Source: Candidatus Pacearchaeota archaeon | Lineage (GTDB): Archaea > Nanobdellota > Nanobdellia > Pacearchaeales > GW2011-AR1 | NCBI GenBank assembly: GCA_016186365.1 | Contig: JACPLT010000014.1 | Coordinates: forward strand, 1 to 43,296 | Length of the DNA stretch: 43,296 nucleotides | Direction of reading: 5' to 3' | Part shown: positions 8,608-39,654 of the stretch, in pieces | Layout: each line of letters starts with the position of its first letter | Position numbering within the stretch: position 1 is the stretch's first letter | The notes under the pieces: model-generated | What the model saw: the letters and a program-made list of their open reading frames with translations, nothing else | Told to the model about the DNA's origin: nothing | Database searches by the model: none | Made by a program: the position numbers and the translations under genes

Positions 8608-11600
8608 TTAAAACAGCTTCTCCTGCTTATCCTCCTCTATTTTTTCCTCATTAAACTCTTTCTGTATAGAGTCAATCGCTTTATACATCTTTTTCTCCTT
8701 ATGAAAAGCGGTCCAATAATAGCTCTCATCTCTTGTATCTTTTGTTATCAGCATAATTAACTTTCCTTCCATCAGTCTTGCAGTTCTTCCAGCTCTCTGT
8801 ATCTTTCTTATAGCAGAAGGAATCGGCTCGTAAAAAATTACAGCATTAACTTCCGGAATATCCAACCCCTCTTCTGCAATTTGAGTTGCAACTAAAATAT
8901 TTATCTCTCCAGAGCTAAAATCCCTGACTAATTCTTGCTGCTCTTTCTGGCTTAGCCCTGTTTCTTTATCCCCCTCTCCTTTTTTTGCCTGTCCTACAAA
9001 AACTTTTGCTCTTGCCCCTGAAATTGAATTCATTTCCCTGCATATTTTAGCTACACTGCTTCTATACTGGGAAAAAATAATTATTTTTGTTTTGCTATTC
9101 TTAGACATCTCTTCAGAAACTATTTCTTTAAGCTTTATCAACTTGGGATGCTCTCTTTTCTTTGCTATCAGCTCGCTTATCTTAATATAAGCTGAATTAA
9201 ACTCCTTTTGTTTTATTAAATTCTGAACTGCCTTGCTCTTTGCTTTTCTTGCCTGCTCAAACAGCTCCTGAAAATACAAAAAAACAGATTCTAAAGTCTG
9301 TGTCTCCAATAACTCAAGGGCATGCTGAACTTTTAGCGCCTGTGCGCAGGCGCTCGCTCCAAGCAAAAGATTAAAATTCTTATTTCCTGAAGAAATCGCT
9401 CTCATTATTCTAAACTGACTGTCAAGTAAAGTTTTTTTGTTGGATATTCCAAATAAAAGCCTTCTTTTTTTAAGCTCATTTATTTTTTTATCCAGAATTA
9501 TCTTTAAACCATCTCTTATCTCTACAAATTCAGGAGGAAAATCCAGCTTGATTATTTCAAATTTCAATTCCTGAAGATATTCTTTGACATCCTCAGAATT
9601 TCTTGTTCTTACCTCTACTGCTTCAATGTCTAAACTTTGGCATATTTTTTTTATTTTTTCTTCTTCATGCCCTGGAGAGGCAGTCAGCCCCAAAATTCTC
9701 TTATGAACTCCCTGCTCTTTATACTTTTCCGCAATATAGGTGTAAGAATAATTTTTTATGCATCTATGGCATTCATCTTCTATAAGTAAAGAAACATTTT
9801 TCAAAGAATAAAGATTATTTTTTATATCATTAGAGATGCAATTATGGCTGATTATAGTATTTGTCAAGAAGTTATGCTCATTTTCTATTGTAAAATCATA
9901 TACCCATTTATTTTCGGATTTTTTTTCTATGTTTTTTATCTTTGCCCATCTAATAGGCATTTTCAATAATTGCCTGAGTTTTTCTGCATTTTCTCCTTTA
10001 GAAATGTCTGCAATTCTAGTCAAATTATCTATAGATAAACAGAGAGATAGATATTTTTCAAATTTTTTAGGATTATCCAAATAAATTTTTTTTATTAGTT
10101 CATTAACTGGAATGATTTCTTTGGCTCGTGTAAATGGCTTTTTAGTATTAATTATTGTTTCTAGAAGAAGTTTGCATTTTTCTCTTTCAGGGTTTATCAT
10201 CAAAAACTTATCCAGATTGTTTCGACCAGAAAATCTAAATGAATATAGAGTGCTGCTTTTCAATACTCTCCCACAAATACAGCTGCGGCTAACTGCAGAT
10301 TCCATACTCCCAACTATTCCCAATCTTAAAGCAAGCCATTTTATATCTTCTATAAATTTTTTGCTGATGCTTGATATTAAAACATTATGTCTAGAAGCAC
10401 AACCATCTGCATCAAATATTCCTTTTAAAAATCCTCGAACATTTGCTGTTTCGCTTGTAAATATATAGTTCGGAACTCTGATTTTATGAGATTTTTTACC
10501 CTTAGGAACACCCAATGCACAAAGAATTTCAGCCAAAGCAGAATTATAAACAATTAACCCTTTTTTTCCAGCATCTTTCATCTTGATTCCAAACACCTCA
10601 AAGAGGGTATTTTTGAAATAATTGGTGTTTTCTTTATAATCTAAATCCGAGAATACCACTTCTTTTCCATGCCCTTCTCTATTCCCGATATGCCCGTCTC
10701 CTAACATTGCGCCTAGGATATAGCTTAATTTAGCATCTAAATATTTTGGGATTGTTACAGGATAACTTTTGCCTTCCCAGTCGGTTAATTTTAATGTCCC
10801 GTAATCAAAATTTGTCTGTTTTGCAAGATCTAAAAATAATTCTAGAGGCATAAAATTATATCTAAAACGAGAATATTCTTTAATGCCTTTTTTCTTTTTG
10901 TCTTTTATTAATTTAAGAAGGTGTCTTGTCTTTTCTTTATCGGCAACTCTAAGATAAGATTTTTTTAAAAGAGGCAAAATTTCTATGATACTATTTTCTT
11001 TAAGGCATATTTCTTTAGCGATCGCAACAAAATCTCCTTCCTTTAATTTTTCGGCATTTTTCCAATTAAGTTCTCCGCGAGGGCTTATCGTAAGGAGAGG
11101 ATGTTCTGGAGTGCATTCGATAGAGTTCCCAAGACTAGTTTTTATTTCAAGGGTATATTTTACAGGCATTTTTAATGCTTTTATCACCCTAACAAAGGCG
11201 ATTTTATCATTTTTCAAACCTAGAACTTCTTCATTAATTTTTGCAGTATATCCTTTTTTTCCTTCATAATTCTCCTCAACCAATTCAATATTATTAAAAA
11301 ATTCTTCTATAGGGATGGGTCCATTTCTTGTAAATATTTGCGTTTTGCCTTCAACACACTGAGGAGTAGAAAAAATAATTTCTGCTCTTTCCCACAATTC
11401 CTGCCTTTTTTCAGCAGAGGTTTTTCCAGTAAAGAGCTCCATTGTAGCAAATAACTCCGGAAGATGCTTTTGAAAATATTTCAAATGCTGTTCAGCTAAT
11501 GGTCTTGTAGGAGCTAAAAAAACAATTTTCTCCTGCGGAAATCTTATCATCCTTTCTATTGCAAGAAGCAGGGCAATAAGAGTTTTTCCCAGTCCTGTAG

Positions 11601-11703
11601 GCAGAACTACCAGGCAATTTTTATCCCTGCAAGTAGAAAATATCTCCTGCTGATACTCTCTTGGAAAAATGTCTTTTAGATATTTCAAAATTTCTTCTTC
11701 CAT
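8608..11703 (-). CDS. hef: Hef-type SF2 helicase interrupted by an intein
   Basis: 1031 codons, of which 506 are an intein (residues 116-621), leaving a 525-residue helicase. Walker A is VLPTGLGKT (about 33-41); motif Ia is FLAPTRPLAEQH; the intein follows FSTPQ in motif Ib; DECH (643-646) is motif II; GLTASPG is motif III; a late ATQIAEEGLDIPEV and QRAGRTAR are motifs V and VI. This matches the FANCM/Hef helicase, which remodels stalled forks. The usual fused XPF nuclease is absent from the C-terminus and is encoded two genes downstream. Activity requires intein removal, since the ATPase motifs are split by it. Confidence 0.93.
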   Translation of the reverse strand: MEEEILKYLKDIFPREYQQEIFSTCRDKNCLVVLPTGLGKTLIALLLAIERMIRFPQEKIVFLAPTRPLAEQHLKYFQKHLPELFATMELFTGKTSAEKRQELWERAEIIFSTPQCVEGKTQIFTRNGPIPIEEFFNNIELVEENYEGKKGYTAKINEEVLGLKNDKIAFVRVIKALKMPVKYTLEIKTSLGNSIECTPEHPLLTISPRGELNWKNAEKLKEGDFVAIAKEICLKENSIIEILPLLKKSYLRVADKEKTRHLLKLIKDKKKKGIKEYSRFRYNFMPLELFLDLAKQTNFDYGTLKLTDWEGKSYPVTIPKYLDAKLSYILGAMLGDGHIGNREGHGKEVVFSDLDYKENTNYFKNTLFEVFGIKMKDAGKKGLIVYNSALAEILCALGVPKGKKSHKIRVPNYIFTSETANVRGFLKGIFDADGCASRHNVLISSISKKFIEDIKWLALRLGIVGSMESAVSRSCICGRVLKSSTLYSFRFSGRNNLDKFLMINPEREKCKLLLETIINTKKPFTRAKEIIPVNELIKKIYLDNPKKFEKYLSLCLSIDNLTRIADISKGENAEKLRQLLKMPIRWAKIKNIEKKSENKWVYDFTIENEHNFLTNTIISHNCISNDIKNNLYSLKNVSLLIEDECHRCIKNYSYTYIAEKYKEQGVHKRILGLTASPGHEEEKIKKICQSLDIEAVEVRTRNSEDVKEYLQELKFEIIKLDFPPEFVEIRDGLKIILDKKINELKKRRLLFGISNKKTLLDSQFRIMRAISSGNKNFNLLLGASACAQALKVQHALELLETQTLESVFLYFQELFEQARKAKSKAVQNLIKQKEFNSAYIKISELIAKKREHPKLIKLKEIVSEEMSKNSKTKIIIFSQYRSSVAKICREMNSISGARAKVFVGQAKKGEGDKETGLSQKEQQELVRDFSSGEINILVATQIAEEGLDIPEVNAVIFYEPIPSAIRKIQRAGRTARLMEGKLIMLITKDTRDESYYWTAFHKEKKMYKAIDSIQKEFNEEKIEEDKQEKLF
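9841..11358 (-). other. Hef intein with LAGLIDADG homing endonuclease
   Basis: 506-residue intein. It begins with Cys (residue 116, CVEGKTQIF), has the block B T-x-x-H in ECTPEHPLL (intein 81-89), two dodecapeptides of the LAGLIDADG endonuclease, ILGAMLGDGHIG (about 214-225) and LKGIFDADGCA (about 311-321), and ends with canonical HN followed by extein Cys. The nucleotide borders are the TGT codon at 11356-11358 and the AAT codon at 9841-9843. All splicing residues are present, so it is probably active. The Methanocaldococcus jannaschii Hef homologue MJ1505 is known to contain an intein as well. Confidence 0.92.
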
Positions 11704-11747
11704 TTTAATAAATCTTCAGATTTTTTATATTCATTTTAATAAAAAGA

Positions 11748-31337: not shown

Positions 31338-32549
31338 ATGGCAATATTGGGGCTTTTAGTCGCTTTATTGCTTGGTGTGACTTGCGGGACTCTAACCGGC
31401 ATAATTCCAGGTTTGCACATAAATTTAGTTTCATCAATTGCAGTTTCTTCTCTCACCTTCCTTTTAGGAATATTCCCGCCGATTTCTATTGCAGTTTTTA
31501 TTGTATCTCTTTCAATAACAAATATCTTCATTGAGTTTATTCCCTCAACTTTTCTAGGATGCCCTGACGAAAGCTCCTCGCTTTCTGTGCTTCCAGCACA
31601 CCAGTTTCTTTTAGAGGGCAAAGGGCACGAAGCAGTTGTCTATTCAATATATGGATGTTTAATCGCTCTCCCAATAATTGCAATTTTCACAATAGTTTTT
31701 ATTTACTCCTTAAATTCAATATTCAGCTATCTAAAGCCCATAATGTTTCTCATACTAATTTCTTCTTCTGCTTATTCAATTTTAAGAGAGGATAAGAAGA
31801 TAATTGCATTTTTTATCTTCACTCTTTCTGGATTTTTAGGTTTGTCCTCGCTAAATCTTGAAATTAAAGACTCTCTTCTTCCTCTCTTAACAGGTTTATT
31901 CGGCTCTTCCTCACTAATAACAAGTATAATAAAAAAGCAAACAATACCTGAACAAAAAATATGCAAGATAAAAGACATAAAAATAACTAGAGAGGAGCTA
32001 AAAAATGTTTTTCTGGCATCTATTCTTTCAACTCCGCTTTGTTCTGTTCTTCCAGCTCTAGGTTCAAGCCAGGCAGCCATCATCGGTTCAGACATCCTGG
32101 AAAAAATAAAGCAAAAAGAGTTCATAGTTCTATTAGGAGCAATAAATACCACAGTTATGGCCCTCTCTTTCGTAACTCTTTATATTTTGGGAAAATCAAG
32201 AACCGGCTCAGCAGTTGCAATTAACACTCTCCTTCCAGTTATCTCTTTTCAAAATTTATTAATAATCCTTACAGCAGTTAGCCTTACCTGTATAATCTCC
32301 TCATTTCTGTCGCTAAAAATCTCAAAGATATTCTCAAAAAATATAAATAAAATTTCCTACAGAAAGCTCTCATTATCTATTTTATTTTTCCTCTCTTTTA
32401 TGATATTTATTTTTTCAGGGATTTTAGGATTTTTGTTATTTATAGCATCAACTGCAACCGGGCTGGTTGCAATATTCCTCAATTCAAGAAGAACAAATCT
32501 GATGGGAAGCCTGATGCTTCCCTCTATTTTATTTTACATCCCTATGTAA
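31338..32549 (+). CDS. TctA/DUF112-family membrane protein
   Basis: 403 residues, about ten membrane helices. The N-terminus LLGVTCGTLTGIIPGLHINL (about 16-35) is the G-x-x-x-G-x-x-P-G-x-H motif of the TctA (tripartite tricarboxylate transporter) superfamily in its archaeal form. A second related motif, SVLPALGSSQAAIIG (about 233-247), matches the internal repeat with P-G/P-A-x-G-S-x-x-A. Archaeal members lack TctB/TctC partners and their substrate is unknown. The right end of the mobile element abuts the ATG, so the present promoter may be supplied by the element. Convergent with purF (8-bp overlap). Confidence 0.8.
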   Translation: MAILGLLVALLLGVTCGTLTGIIPGLHINLVSSIAVSSLTFLLGIFPPISIAVFIVSLSITNIFIEFIPSTFLGCPDESSSLSVLPAHQFLLEGKGHEAVVYSIYGCLIALPIIAIFTIVFIYSLNSIFSYLKPIMFLILISSSAYSILREDKKIIAFFIFTLSGFLGLSSLNLEIKDSLLPLLTGLFGSSSLITSIIKKQTIPEQKICKIKDIKITREELKNVFLASILSTPLCSVLPALGSSQAAIIGSDILEKIKQKEFIVLLGAINTTVMALSFVTLYILGKSRTGSAVAINTLLPVISFQNLLIILTAVSLTCIISSFLSLKISKIFSKNINKISYRKLSLSILFFLSFMIFIFSGILGFLLFIASTATGLVAIFLNSRRTNLMGSLMLPSILFYIPM

Positions 32550-33735
32550 CTCCCAGCACACATTTCATTTGTTTCTCTTTAAAATTTTTCCCAAATTCAG
32601 TAGGATAATCTCCATTCAAGCAGGCAGTGCATAGCTCATCTTCCCCCAGCCCGATAGCCTCTTTTAAATCCTCTATCTCTAAATAAGAAACAGACTCCGC
32701 CCCTAACTCTTCTGCTATTTTCTTTAAATCTCCGGTATATTTATTAGCAATCAATTCAGAATAAGCTGCCATATCTATTCCATAACAGCACGGATGCAGG
32801 ATTTTTGGCTCTGTTGACCTTAAATGAACTTCTTTGGCTCCCGACTCCTTCAAAAGTGCAATTACTTTCTTAGATGTCTCTCCCCTTACAATGCTATCCT
32901 CAACAAGCAGGACTTTTTTTCCAAGAATTCTCTCTTTTATAACATTATAAGTCCTGTTCATTATTCTTTTTCTGTCCTCCTCTTTATTGATAAATCCTCT
33001 TTCACTATCCGCCTTTGTTATTGCCATGCTCCACCCAATCTTTAAATTTCTTGCCAGAGATTCGGCAGCAGGAATCGCGGTAAATGGAACAGGCACGACA
33101 ACAAAATCTTCAGGATGTTTAATTATTTCCTCTTTTAAAATTTCTGTCCGAGCTAATTGCTCTCCTAACTTCTCTCTGACTAAATTAACAGAAACATTAT
33201 CTATAACAGAATTGGCTTTTGAAAAATATACCCACTCAAACTGGCATCTTGCTCTTCTGTCTCGCTGAAAAATTATTTTCTTTCTTGCTCCATTTTTATT
33301 ATAAATAAGGCACTCTCCAGGATTCAAAAATTGAAAATTAGTTATTCCGATTTTTTCTAAAGCTGTGCTTTCAGAAGCTGCAGCAAAGAAATTTTCATTT
33401 TCTCCGTATACTAACGGCTTAAATCCGCACGGGTCTCTTAATAACACTAAATCTCCATCAGCAAACAAACAAGCCAGACTATAAGCCCCATCAAGTTTTC
33501 CAGTCAAATCAGAAAAAACATCGAATAAATCTGGTTTGACAACTTTTTCAGATTCGTCTCTCTTTTCGTATTTTTTCAAACTCAAAGAAATAAGGTGCAT
33601 TATTACCTCTGTATCAACATCTGTATCCAAAATATAATCATTTTCAACCATCGCTTTTTTTAGCTCTTCATAATTAACAATATTCCCATTAAAAGCCAAA
33701 GAAAACCTCTTCCACGCTCTTGCATGATTTCTCAA
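32542..33735 (-). CDS. purF: amidophosphoribosyltransferase, C-terminal part of broken purF
   Basis: 397 residues. It begins inside the glutaminase domain (RNHARAWKRF, then LAFNGNIVNYEEL, matching the NGN of PurF) and contains the complete phosphoribosyltransferase domain with KKVLLVEDSIVRGETSKKVI, the PRPP loop, and the C-terminal CTACLNGDYPTEF. PurF makes phosphoribosylamine from PRPP and glutamine. The N-terminal nucleophile and the strand with HxRY are not in this frame: they belong to the fragment at 33783-34046 or are lost. The PRTase alone could use ammonia, or the gene is decaying. Confidence 0.85.
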   Translation of the reverse strand: MRNHARAWKRFSLAFNGNIVNYEELKKAMVENDYILDTDVDTEVIMHLISLSLKKYEKRDESEKVVKPDLFDVFSDLTGKLDGAYSLACLFADGDLVLLRDPCGFKPLVYGENENFFAAASESTALEKIGITNFQFLNPGECLIYNKNGARKKIIFQRDRRARCQFEWVYFSKANSVIDNVSVNLVREKLGEQLARTEILKEEIIKHPEDFVVVPVPFTAIPAAESLARNLKIGWSMAITKADSERGFINKEEDRKRIMNRTYNVIKERILGKKVLLVEDSIVRGETSKKVIALLKESGAKEVHLRSTEPKILHPCCYGIDMAAYSELIANKYTGDLKKIAEELGAESVSYLEIEDLKEAIGLGEDELCTACLNGDYPTEFGKNFKEKQMKCVLGVT

Positions 33736-33782
33736 GAACGGCTGGGCTTCTGTTCTTAATTCAAAATTGCTTTTTGCCTTTC

Positions 33783-34046
33783 CTAGTCAAATATCTTTTT
33801 CATATCTTCTTTTTTATTAACAGAAAATAAGTCATTCACATTCCCTATGTCTTTAAACAAAATAAGTCTTCTTTTTCCAAGAATATTTTCATCATCAAAA
33901 ACACTCACTCCTGCGCTTAGCTGTCCTCTATGCTGAAGCTGAGACAGCCCATAATAAGCAAGTGTAGGCAGCTCGCTTTTTTTTGCTAAACCTCCCTCTT
34001 TAAGATAAATTGCAAATATCCCGCACTCCTCTTTTGCTTCTCCCAT
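33783..34046 (-). pseudogene. purF: purF N-terminal fragment (frameshifted)
   Basis: 87 residues. It carries the propeptide and catalytic Cys of PurF (MGEAKEECGIFAIYL, Cys8) and the YYGLSQLQHRGQLSAGVSVF segment. It ends at a TAG (33783-33785). Continuing in the -1 frame from GAC gives LGKAKSNFELRTEAQPFLRN, which leads directly into the downstream ORF. The expected GHxRYxTxG strand before this point is missing, so a deletion not divisible by three, rather than a single-base slip, is the better explanation. Confidence 0.7.
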
Positions 34047-34764: not shown

Positions 34765-37700
34765 TCAAAACCACTTCTTCAACTCCTGCTGTTTCTCTGT
34801 CTCTTTCCCGAATATACTTTCAATATAACTCTTTGTAAGCTCTAATGCCTGTCTTAGATAAGGAGAAATTTCATATTTCTGCGACAGCAATATTGCCGGC
34901 TCAAGATATTTCACTATGCTCCCTTCAGAGATTGTAAATATTATTTTTCCCCCGCAATTTAAGCATTTCCCGGCTAAAGGGGGCCTTCTGTATTTAGTGT
35001 TGCATTTCCCGCACCTAAATTCCTGCTGCGAAAACTTTCTCAAATTTCCTCTTATATCTCTTATAAAATGCCTGTCAATTGTAAGTCTCGCAACATCAGA
35101 AGCATCAACCGCTCTTATCTTCTCATCTAACTCCATCTGTTTTGCAACCTTCTCACTCATAGTAGGAATCAGCTTGTAGGAAGAATTATTCACCCCGGCA
35201 TTAATATCAGAAGTAAAATGAGTAAACCCTGTGTTCGTAAACGGATCCTCATCTTTAGCCAGCCTGCTCTTGACACTATCAATCTTAATTTCAGAAGAGT
35301 GATGCCCTCCCTCTTCGGCTTTTAGATAAAGTTCCAGAGGATATTCAGAAACCAGCTCAAAATCTAAAATCTGGTCATCCACCTCTCCTGCTCTTAGTCT
35401 TGTATTTAAAACTAAAGGAGCGTCTTGAGTTCCTCCTCTGTGAGCGGGCAGAAACTCTCTGGAGAAATTAATTAACACATCCAACAGCAGCATCACCGCC
35501 GCTTCATCTCCGTCGCATCTAGTATTGATTATTTGTTCTCCCCATAAAACATTTCTATCTTCTTTTTCTTTCCATTCAATTTCAACACAATAAGAATTTT
35601 TCTTATCATGAATCATCTCTATTTCTTTAACTCTATCTTCAAAATAATCTCCGCACGATTTCATAGGGATTTGTTTCCCATTATAATTCAGATATCTCTT
35701 GTCTGATAAGACAAAAAGAGATAACATCTGTCTTTTTCTATTATTTTTAACATTTAAAATCTTAGACAAATTAAAAGAGTCCTTAATTCCTAATACTAAA
35801 TGATTTAATACATGTTGCTTGGGAGTTCTGTTTAGTTCAGCATATCTTTCAAGAACTTTTTTTCCAGGGCTTCGCAGCCGGGTTCTGGCATATCTGGAAA
35901 CTATCCCAAATTTTCCTAAAAGTAATGCCACTCCATCTAATAACTCTCTGGATACAGAATAAAAAACAATGTGCTTTCCATTTATCGCACTTCCATCACC
36001 TTCAAAATAAGCAGACAAATACTCTGTTGCAAAATTATTATTTAACCCAAAAATAAAATTAGGAACTTTCTTCTGATAAGCTCCCTCTCCAACTCCTAGA
36101 ATCGTAAAAAGATAATAAACTAATTTGCTGCAGATAGTTATTTTAGTATTTTCTTCTCCTAAACTAGGGGTTATACCCAATCCTATTTTTATATCTTTTA
36201 TCAATTGTTTTTGAGTTTCTTTATTGCAGATTCTGAAGCTTATTTGGGAAACCCATTTATTTTTTCTAGAATATCCTTCTGAAGAGTAATATCCTAAAAT
36301 TCTCATTAATTCAGGAGTTATTTTAAACATCGCATTAATTTTATGCCGGGAAAATTTCCATCTTAATTTAGCATCACCAAAATTATCCAGTTCTTCTAAT
36401 TTGAATTTAGAGTATACTTGAAAAAGTTCTTCTTCCTTACCATTATAACATACCAAAATATTCTTTTTTTCATTTTCAGAAAGATTAAAAAATAACCTAA
36501 ATAGGTTTAGTTTATTAGTAGAAAGATTAAACTTAAAATTTTCTAATATTGGTATCTTATCATCAAGCCGGATTTTTTTAGCATCTTTGAACTTGAATTT
36601 TGAATCTTGAACATACATAAATTTATGTGTAGGAGTCATAGTATACTCCCGATTTGTAGCAGTTTTTATTTTAATCCATTCTTTTGTTTCAGGACCTTTG
36701 ATAAAATATTTTATTTTTTTATTTTTTATTTTATTTGTTTCTGGATCTATACCTAAAGTATAAAGATTTTTTCTATTTTCCACAGAAATAGTTCCCGCAC
36801 CATCAATAACTTTAGTTTTTGCTCCCTGATTTATAAGTTTTTCAACATATTCTCCTATTTCTCCATAAAACGTTTGTTTAGTGTCATCATCATAAAAAAA
36901 TAGTTTAGTATTTGGATGTACACAATCACGCCTCATAGCCGCATGCATGTATGGAGAAGCCAGCAAAGTTTGAGTCTTGCTAAACCCAATTATTCTTCCC
37001 ACAACCCCTGCGCAGTTATGCGGAGCCATACAAGCAACAAGATGCCCTGCCAAATCTTCTTTTACTCTAAGATTATAAAATGGCTTCATTCCATAAAATT
37101 TTACAAGCATCAAATCAATAAAATTAGCAATTCTCATAAAAATATCATCTGCTCTCTCATCTTTTGAGTCAGGACAGGATGGAAGTATAACATCGTGAGG
37201 TTTTAATTCTAAAATTTGTTCCTCATCTTCAAGAGATTTTCCATGCATATCTTTTTCATAACCTAATTCTCTCAATTTTTGAACACTCACTCTCACCTCT
37301 TTTGGCTTGAAATGAGAGATAGGCATTTCAGTCGCATCATATCTTATTGTTCCGTCCTTATTCACCTGCAAGTCAAACATCGCTCTCAAAAATCCCTTTG
37401 CAGCATTTTCAGGAATATGATTTTTGCTGGATGTTCCTCTTACCCCCTTGATTAATTTAGGTATTTCAGAAGGCAACAAGTCTAATTTTTTAAACGCGGC
37501 ATTAAAATATTTTTTCATGTCAATTTTTCTTGAAGAATAACTTCTTCCAAGATTATGTTCCGCACACTTCTCTTCAGAAATATTCTTTTTGCATTCAGGG
37601 CAGAAATAAAGTTTTCTGCACTCTTTCCCGCAATTTTCACAGGTAAAATAAATAGTTTCATTTTTGCAGTTATCGCAAAAATAAATTGAAAAATCTGCCT

Positions 37701-39654
37701 TTACGCTTCCAACATTGCATGCTTCAATAACACTCCTTAATCTTCCTCCCTCATCTCCTACAGGAAAAAGAACATTTGGGCTCCCTATTAATTTTCTTAT
37801 CTTTGCTTTTTCAGGCCTCCCCATCCTGCTTCCGATAAATGTTCCTGCTTTGTCCCTAATTCTGAATTTAGAAATTTTGTTGATTATTTCAAGAACTTTT
37901 TTATTTTCAAGATTGTCTTCCTGAGATTTTATTCTGCTCATAATTTTGATTATTTCTTCTTCAAAACTAAATCCTAAATTAATTCCAAGATTAGATAAAA
38001 GCGCCTTGCTGTTTTCTGCATCAATTATGGTATTCTCAATAACCACCTCATGCTCTGCTCCTATAAGTTCTAAAGCTCTCTTGCCAATAGAAAATCTTTC
38101 CCGGTCCGTCTTATTGTATGGCAGGATTATTTTATTTTCAAATCTAGAATGAGAAATCCAGTCTAATAATCCTAAAAATTGTTCATAACTTATCTGGCTC
38201 CAATAATAGATAAACTTAGGATGCATAGACAGCCCCAATCTCTCGCTTATCTCTCTGGCTAAATCAAAATGGATTTCGAAAGGATTTTCAATATCAATAT
38301 CTTCTGATTTTTCAGCGGCGGCTTTTTTCAGCTCATGAAACCACCATTCTTCAACATACCCTGGCTTTATCAGCTCATAATTCCTGTTTAAAACATCTCC
38401 AAAAGAAATAAGTATATCCCCAAAATAAATTATCTCCTCCACATCTGAATAAATTTGTTTTGAAGTTTCAAAATCTTTTATTTTTCTCACACTTCCATTT
38501 CTCAACTTGACTATTGGCCCGTCCATCCCATCGCACTGGCTTATTGCGCATCCTTTTGTGGGTTTTTCTATCTTTAGCTGTGTTCCACTGGAAAGGAAGG
38601 AGTCCGAAATTCCCATAGTCGCAGGATGAACAGAAGTTGCAGAAAATCCGCTTGCTCTTGACCTTCCATATCTAAACCGAAATGCTCCAGACCTTGAAGG
38701 ATGCCCAAAAACAGGCCTTCCTGCAACCAAATCTTTAATATAAGTTGGAGAAACATTAGAGCTTCCAGTCTCTCTTTTTTTATGAAGCTTGATATAATCC
38801 TCCAAAAATTCCCAGTCTGAAATTTTAAAACCTTTTGATTGCAGCTGCCTCAAAATTCTTAATCCTTTTTGGGCTTTTTGTGCAAGCCCCTCCCCCATAA
38901 TCAGGCACATTCCTCCCCGAATAAAATTAGTTTCAACTCTCTCCAAATCTTTATAATTGCTTACCTCCTTGCTTTCAGAAGCGTCTCCTGCCACCTGTAT
39001 AGGAATATGTTTTGCAAGAAATTCTATTTCCTCTTCAGTCGGAAGATACTGCAGATTATTGACTTTTTCATGATAATCATAAAGTTCAGTTACATATCTC
39101 TTGACCTCTTTTTCATCTGCATCAAATTTCGCAAATCCAAACATCTCTCTTAAATAATCAATTAACATCAATACCATACAGCTTGCAGTTGTCCCCGCGC
39201 TTCTTATCGGTCCGGAAAAATAAGGCTTGAAATACTCTTTTCCATCTCTAGTTTTTTCAATCTTCAGTTCAGTATATCCCTCAATAGGAGAGGATACTAC
39301 TCCCAAAGTATTGTAAGCAAACCCCACCCTTATCCCTGCATCAATCGCTTCTGCAAAACTTGAAAACTTGCAGTATTTTTCTTTCGCAATCTCTTCAGCT
39401 ATTTTAAAATAAACCGCAGGGTCAAGTTTCCCATACTGCTTTTCAAGCTCGAGTATCCTGTCGATTATCTGCTTATTGTTTACCTGCGGATATATAGTCG
39501 CAATTAAACCCGTAGCTTTTTCTGCAAGAGTTGTTGCTCTTGGAACCTCAACAACAGAAAGGGGATCAAGCCCTTTTTTTCTGGCTTCTTCTGCTATCTT
39601 ATACTCTTCAATTGTTCTGTCTTCTATTTCTTTGAAGTAAGAGTTTATATTCAT
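34765..39654 (-). CDS. polC: DNA polymerase D large subunit DP2, with intein
   Basis: 1629 codons: a DP2 of about 1160 residues plus a 469-residue intein at 911-1379. DP2 is the polymerising subunit of the archaeal replicase PolD. Visible parts: the N-terminal helical region, the FGHPSRSGAFRFRYGRSRAS motif, a zinc segment with CDNCKNE, CENCGKECR and CPECKK, the KYFNAAFKKL region, LRVKEDLAGHLVACMAPHNC, the catalytic loop CDGDEAAVMLL split by the intein, and a C-terminal zinc finger (FRCGKCNTKYRR ... GKCLNCGGK). The two active-site Asp lie in CDGDE directly after the intein, so correct splicing is required for activity. Orc1/Cdc6, DP1 and an HD gene precede it. Confidence 0.95.
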   Translation of the reverse strand: MNINSYFKEIEDRTIEEYKIAEEARKKGLDPLSVVEVPRATTLAEKATGLIATIYPQVNNKQIIDRILELEKQYGKLDPAVYFKIAEEIAKEKYCKFSSFAEAIDAGIRVGFAYNTLGVVSSPIEGYTELKIEKTRDGKEYFKPYFSGPIRSAGTTASCMVLMLIDYLREMFGFAKFDADEKEVKRYVTELYDYHEKVNNLQYLPTEEEIEFLAKHIPIQVAGDASESKEVSNYKDLERVETNFIRGGMCLIMGEGLAQKAQKGLRILRQLQSKGFKISDWEFLEDYIKLHKKRETGSSNVSPTYIKDLVAGRPVFGHPSRSGAFRFRYGRSRASGFSATSVHPATMGISDSFLSSGTQLKIEKPTKGCAISQCDGMDGPIVKLRNGSVRKIKDFETSKQIYSDVEEIIYFGDILISFGDVLNRNYELIKPGYVEEWWFHELKKAAAEKSEDIDIENPFEIHFDLAREISERLGLSMHPKFIYYWSQISYEQFLGLLDWISHSRFENKIILPYNKTDRERFSIGKRALELIGAEHEVVIENTIIDAENSKALLSNLGINLGFSFEEEIIKIMSRIKSQEDNLENKKVLEIINKISKFRIRDKAGTFIGSRMGRPEKAKIRKLIGSPNVLFPVGDEGGRLRSVIEACNVGSVKADFSIYFCDNCKNETIYFTCENCGKECRKLYFCPECKKNISEEKCAEHNLGRSYSSRKIDMKKYFNAAFKKLDLLPSEIPKLIKGVRGTSSKNHIPENAAKGFLRAMFDLQVNKDGTIRYDATEMPISHFKPKEVRVSVQKLRELGYEKDMHGKSLEDEEQILELKPHDVILPSCPDSKDERADDIFMRIANFIDLMLVKFYGMKPFYNLRVKEDLAGHLVACMAPHNCAGVVGRIIGFSKTQTLLASPYMHAAMRRDCVHPNTKLFFYDDDTKQTFYGEIGEYVEKLINQGAKTKVIDGAGTISVENRKNLYTLGIDPETNKIKNKKIKYFIKGPETKEWIKIKTATNREYTMTPTHKFMYVQDSKFKFKDAKKIRLDDKIPILENFKFNLSTNKLNLFRLFFNLSENEKKNILVCYNGKEEELFQVYSKFKLEELDNFGDAKLRWKFSRHKINAMFKITPELMRILGYYSSEGYSRKNKWVSQISFRICNKETQKQLIKDIKIGLGITPSLGEENTKITICSKLVYYLFTILGVGEGAYQKKVPNFIFGLNNNFATEYLSAYFEGDGSAINGKHIVFYSVSRELLDGVALLLGKFGIVSRYARTRLRSPGKKVLERYAELNRTPKQHVLNHLVLGIKDSFNLSKILNVKNNRKRQMLSLFVLSDKRYLNYNGKQIPMKSCGDYFEDRVKEIEMIHDKKNSYCVEIEWKEKEDRNVLWGEQIINTRCDGDEAAVMLLLDVLINFSREFLPAHRGGTQDAPLVLNTRLRAGEVDDQILDFELVSEYPLELYLKAEEGGHHSSEIKIDSVKSRLAKDEDPFTNTGFTHFTSDINAGVNNSSYKLIPTMSEKVAKQMELDEKIRAVDASDVARLTIDRHFIRDIRGNLRKFSQQEFRCGKCNTKYRRPPLAGKCLNCGGKIIFTISEGSIVKYLEPAILLSQKYEISPYLRQALELTKSYIESIFGKETEKQQELKKWF
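35518..36924 (-). other. DP2 intein with non-canonical C-terminus
   Basis: Residues 911-1379 of the DP2 reading frame. Starts with Cys (CVHPNTKLFF), block B is TMTPTHKFM (TxxH, intein 97-100), endonuclease motifs are RILGYYSSEG (about 208-217) and LSAYFEGDGSA (about 303-313), and block F is SYCVEIEWK. The last residues before extein CDGDE are QIINTR, where other inteins end His-Asn (or His-Gln). If splicing used the Asn of IIN, a Thr-Arg pair would remain in the catalytic loop. The insertion site is the same loop as the Pyrococcus abyssi Pol II intein, which ends in Gln. Confidence 0.88.

Follow-up and report, generated by a model that had tools for sequence, protein, structure and literature searches.

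The window analysed here, a 43,296-nucleotide stretch of a contig from a Candidatus Pacearchaeota archaeon, encodes the large catalytic subunit of the archaeal DNA polymerase PolD, DP2, the reading frame of which is interrupted by an intein (Table 1). The DP2 ORF matches the Pfam domains PF03833, PF24844, and PF24846 and aligns to the solved PolD DP2 structures 6knb, 6hms, and 5ijl (PDB). A single match to PF03833 is found in the source genome, which indicates that DP2 is a single-copy gene. The intein occupies DP2 residues Cys911 to Arg1379, with RRD|CVHPNTK at its start and WGEQIINTR|CDGDE at its end. A first-pass annotation, made from the letters of the window, had placed an intein in the DP2 catalytic loop between RRD-C and GEQIINTR, followed by CDGDEAAVM, and had listed a block A Cys, a block B TxxH, and endonuclease motifs; its coordinates and residues are right, and the Cys, a TPTH motif, and a LAGLIDADG domain are all present (PF14890 and PF14528).

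The alignment with other DP2 inteins and with the intein-free DP2 proteins of related genomes, which had been suggested as a check, places Arg over Gln/Asn and reveals that RRD runs straight into CDGDE in all 27 distinct intein-free cases (one of which reads ADGDE). Because these residues are contiguous in every intein-free relative, the boundaries of the intein are certain. The insert is in frame and absent from homologues, its exteins would join seamlessly, and the intein scores above the cut-offs of both splicing profiles (34.4 bits against 24.5 for TIGR01445 intein_Nterm, and 43.3 bits against 35.8 for PF14890 Intein_splicing). The endonuclease domain is similar to that of PI-PkoII (2cw7). 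The insertion site and the PolD catalytic Asp pair, both members of which are essential, share one loop (PMC4996933).

Table 1. Positions of the features of the window (residue numbers are those of the intein; negative positions count back from its last residue, -1).
Feature	Position	Strand	Remarks
DP2 (polC), PolD large catalytic subunit, with a single in-frame intein	34765..39654	-	1629-aa ORF, one open frame
Intein, 469 aa, Cys1 to Arg469	35518..36924	-	TIGR01445, PF14890; missing from intein-free relatives
Cys1, N-terminal nucleophile	36922..36924	-	Invariant in 23/23 full-length members
Block B T-x-x-H (TPTH), residues 97-100	36625..36636	-	T97 and H100 invariant, 23/23
LAGLIDADG homing endonuclease domain, core match	35836..36030	-	PF14528, E 1.4e-14, above cut-off
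Block F Ser-Tyr-Cys, residues 444-446 (Cys = F:4)	35587..35595	-	Invariant, 23/23
Clade-specific C-terminal block RNVLWGEQIINTR, residues 457-469	35518..35556	-	25 Arg-ended and 25 Gln/Asn-ended DP2 inteins tabulated
Asn at -3, residue 467	35524..35526	-	Asn in 23/25 and Gln in 2/25 members
Arg469, last intein residue, codon AGA	35518..35520	-	Arg in 25/25; stands where a cyclising Asn/Gln is otherwise found
First C-extein residues CDGDE: Cys+1 nucleophile and both PolD catalytic Asp	35503..35517	-	
Hef-like helicase ORF with a second intein	8611-11715	-	1035 aa
purF-like amidophosphoribosyltransferase gene	32542-34046	-	ORFs of 87 and 397 aa

The second intein of the window, in the Hef-like helicase (STPQ|CVEG...TIISHN|CISND), has a canonical His-Asn|Cys end. 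The source genome (G000), which is smaller than 1 Mb, contains nine matches to the intein N-terminal model on contigs C18, C20, C33, C34, C37, C42, and C43, eight of which exceed the cut-off, a heavy intein load. At least five other inteins of this genome have canonical His-Asn ends, which indicates that the organism is otherwise not unusual. A stop and a shift of frame separate the two ORFs of the purF-like gene, which also seems to be missing a segment present in an intact relative (L041), consistent with either a pseudogene or an assembly error.

Extent and conservation of the Arg-ended clade

Profile searches of the order (200 genomes) and the class (378 genomes), together with a codon-pattern search for RCDGDE in samples of the class and the phylum, reveal an Arg-ended intein at the DP2 site in 25 genomes from 23 genera and 12 families of one archaeal class, the named carriers being one Candidatus Pacearchaeota and one Nanoarchaeota genome. 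No DP2 intein of this kind is present in the viral contigs searched. All 25 members end in N/Q-x-R|CDGDE, with the tails IINTR, VINTR, ILNLR, IINAR, ILNAR, IINFR, IINMR, IINLR, ILNTR, and LFQIR, and the consensus of the C-terminal block is [RK][NST][VI][LVI]WG[EDN]xI[IL][NQ]xR. The profile searches of the order and class did not require Arg, yet every clade member that they returned ends in it. Cys1, T97, H100, S444-Y445-C446, G462, R469, and Cys+1 are invariant in the 23 full-length members. The NCBI profile TIGR01443 intein_Cterm scored a sequence from the Gln clade but none of those tried from the Arg clade; Arg-ended elements currently escape this standard model of intein C-termini.

In a tree of 35 DP2 inteins, the 23 full-length Arg-ended sequences are separated from 12 Gln/Asn-ended sequences with 100/100 support. 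Within the Arg-ended clade of this tree, position -1 undergoes no change over 14.4 substitutions per site, and position -2 changes at least eight times. The first-pass annotation had singled out the Thr-Arg end as an oddity; both residues are read correctly, but only the Arg is conserved, since -2 is Thr in 12 of the 25 members and Phe, Leu, Ala, Ile, or Met in the other 13. The last Arg is encoded by five codons across the members (AGA, AGG, CGT, CGA, and CGG), which indicates that selection acts on the amino acid. Recoding of this codon was considered separately and is ruled out by the five codons in use.

An error of sequencing or assembly, which the annotation had named as a finding that could overturn its reading, is so improbable as to be negligible: identical residues recur in 25 independent assemblies, the codons of which differ synonymously, and the frame is continuous through both exteins. 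The same holds for an RNA intron in place of an intein, as there is no Rfam intron match and the intein blocks are invariant at the protein level. The other such finding, a normal Asn elsewhere in related inteins, was looked for in the alignments and did not emerge.

Register of the last residue and the altered step-3 residues

The last 14 residues of the 25 Arg-ended and 25 Gln/Asn-ended DP2 inteins align without gaps, with hydrophobic columns common to both clades at -11, -10, -9, -5, and -4. The mean BLOSUM62 score per column against the Gln/Asn-ended clade is 0.58 when Arg is taken as the last residue, -0.23 when -2 is last, and -1.19 when -3 is last. Against five canonical His-Asn inteins (four from the source genome and one from a relative), the best gapless register has -2 as the last residue (0.64), the Arg-last register scores -0.24, and the Asn(-3)-last register is again negative. 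The preference for -2 is attributed here to an additional residue in the loop between blocks F and G, an explanation that the result fits but does not prove.

These registers bear on the possibility that the cyclising residue has moved, such that Asn/Gln(-3) cleaves after itself and the N-extein is joined to x-Arg, giving RRD-xR-CDGDE unless the dipeptide is subsequently lost. The carboxamide at -3, which is invariant across the Arg-ended clade and occupied by T/S/V/N/A in the Gln/Asn-ended clade, looks catalytic, and its conservation, equal to that expected of a catalytic amide, is the strongest argument for a shifted cleavage site. However, the Asn-last register would place polar residues at strand positions where all relatives have hydrophobic ones, and in the 13 members with Phe, Leu, Ala, Ile, or Met at -2 the residue following the cleavage site would not be a nucleophile. 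Moreover, in 281 genomes of the class no DP2 has two extra residues between RRD and CDGDE, beside the Asp pair, nor does any of the 27 intein-free DP2 proteins, and the invariance of Arg would be left unexplained. A moved cyclising residue is therefore considered unlikely, and splicing at Asn1377 with Thr as the +1 residue and TR left behind, as the annotation had entertained, fails as a general mechanism.

The comparison of the two clades also reveals which parts of the splicing machinery differ. With block roles in the splicing steps assigned after PMC4031507, the residues predicted to serve steps 1 and 2 (Cys1, TxxH, the block F Cys, and Cys+1) are all present and invariant, and Cys1 and TxxH (23/23 full-length members) and Cys+1 (all members) are those of class 1 inteins. 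The block F:13 His, a frequent though not universal helper of step 3 in class 1 inteins, is absent from the Arg-ended clade, in which N/S/T is found at -12 after an invariant R/K at -13. Trp(-9), Gly(-8), E/D/N(-7), and Asn/Gln(-3) are conserved in the Arg-ended clade and have no counterpart in the Gln/Asn-ended clade, where -1 is Gln (20/25) or Asn (5/25), -12 is His (21/25) or Asn (4/25), and -7 is Asn (24/25). Since the helper residues of step 3 differ and the parts for steps 1 and 2 are intact, the change is concentrated in the C-terminal cleavage machinery.

Signs of function

The splicing domain is under purifying selection, as estimated from a dN/dS of ~0.13-0.33 (about 0.1-0.3), a value that is approximate, with a high dS. 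Three mini-inteins of the Arg-ended clade, of 169 (locus L114), 191, and 204 aa, have lost the endonuclease and retain C1, TxxH, SYC, and NxR. Because mini-inteins gain nothing from homing, the preservation of their splicing blocks is an argument that they splice. The genomes that carry an Arg-ended intein yielded no second intact DP2: the second, partial DP2 match in genome G315 appears to be the absent 5′ end of the gene, cut off by a contig break, and the 5′ end of DP2 is missing in G406.

A further reading, close to one in the first-pass annotation, is that the intein no longer splices and either only cleaves or persists within DP2, regulating or inactivating it. A C-terminal Arg occurs in no described intein, and type B bacterial intein-like domains, which like the Arg-ended clade have no canonical block G Asn, only cleave (PMC4031507). 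However, those domains have no block G similarity and no +1 nucleophile, whereas the Arg-ended clade has a conserved WGxxIxNxR and Cys+1. Furthermore, an unspliced insert would break the catalytic loop of a single-copy polymerase beside both essential Asp residues (PMC4996933), and the selection on the splicing domain and the blocks and Cys+1 kept by the endonuclease-free members disfavour this reading, which is regarded as very unlikely. Of the three readings that the annotation had offered, the comparative data support the one of an undescribed C-terminus, Arg being present in 25 of 25 members.

Candidate cleavage chemistry and relation to known inteins

The insert is probably a mobile, active intein of an undescribed sub-type, here termed Arg-terminal DP2 inteins, which would splice exactly at Arg|Cys through an undescribed third step. 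Steps 1, 2, and 4 would proceed as in class 1 inteins, with the usual thioester formed on Cys1 and then a branched thioester on Cys+1. The peptide bond between Arg469 and Cys+1 would be broken precisely, restoring RRD-CDGDE seamlessly. In the favoured form of step 3, the Nε of Arg would attack the carbonyl of the same Arg to form a six-membered δ-lactam in place of the glutarimide formed by the Gln of the other clade, and Lys/Arg(-13), Trp(-9), Gly(-8), Glu/Asp/Asn(-7), and Asn/Gln(-3) may take over activation of the Arg from the lost block F His.

The Nε of Arg and the amide nitrogen of Gln are separated from Cα by an equal number of bonds, and a six-membered ring results in both cases. A protonated guanidinium (pKa of at least 12.5) makes a poor nucleophile, and this high pKa is a weak point of the Arg lactam. 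When Arg is activated in peptide synthesis, the δ-lactam is the main side reaction, and the six-membered ring drives its formation (PMC7352207); this precedent concerns activated Arg, whereas an unactivated amide would have to react here, which adds to the weakness. That the Arg side chain cleaves the intein-extein bond as a δ-lactam, a new self-cleaving chemistry that would have a single origin at the DP2 site and have reached many archaeal families from there, is put forward as a tentative possibility. In AlphaFold2 models of the precursor region (four sequences), the endonuclease is modelled well, the splicing domain is mostly below 50 pLDDT, and the Arg is not placeable in the active site.

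Host-assisted or water-based cleavage is the main alternative chemistry at the Arg|Cys bond. Arg469 would then not act as a nucleophile, the bond being cut by a host protease, after modification of the Arg (to ornithine or citrulline, for example), or by a water molecule activated by the HINT fold, after which the thioester would rearrange to a peptide bond. Such cleavage would account for an invariant, protease-like Arg site and for the junction, and Asn(-3) and Lys/Arg(-13) could shape this site. However, no candidate enzyme was identified, and dependence on a host factor would slow the spread of the intein, yet it is found in 12 families; cleavage without Arg as the nucleophile is thus judged rather unlikely.

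The last intein residues named in reviews are Asn, Gln, and Asp (and Glu) (PMC4031507, PMC7664689), and no paper on an Arg-ended intein was found among the open-access papers searched, although an earlier description in subscription papers or InBase is possible. The closest described systems are the PolII inteins of Pyrococcus abyssi and P. horikoshii, which resemble the Arg-ended clade in the host protein, the catalytic-loop region, Cys1, Cys+1, the HINT fold, and a non-Asn end (PMC8175363, PMC8229266); Gln-ended PolII inteins at the DP2 site splice (PMC8175363, PMC4031507). In the Pyrococcus inteins, the terminal Gln cyclises to an aminoglutarimide with the help of the block F His, whereas the Arg-ended clade has an Arg end and has lost the His. 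The similarity of the window intein to 2lcj is weak (E 0.016 over residues 51-128). Within the class, Gln/Asn-ended DP2 inteins such as L034, L035, L062, and L164 share with the Arg-ended clade the RRD/CDGDE site, the block order, a C-terminus that aligns without gaps, and the endonuclease type.

With respect to the described classes, Cys1, TxxH, block F, and Cys+1 are common to class 1 inteins (PMC4031507) and the Arg-ended clade, which differs by its last residue. Class 2 and class 3 inteins lack a nucleophile at position 1, whereas Cys1 is invariant in the Arg-ended clade, which therefore belongs to neither. A class of their own would be deserved if the chemistry of the Arg were shown. A clade this large, old, and selected shows that the last-residue rule does not cover every case, and it points to either a new chemistry of cleavage or a splice site that has shifted; Arg as a nucleophile, if true, would add one more residue to the toolbox of protein self-cleavage.

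Two further observations concern the other DP2 inteins of the class. Gln ends, generally described as uncommon, predominate at this site, where they occur in 20 of the 25 (L163-L177, L058-L069). One Gln-ended DP2 intein (L034:3342-3935, genome G020) is a mini-intein of 198 aa, the endonuclease of which was lost independently of the losses in the Arg-ended clade.
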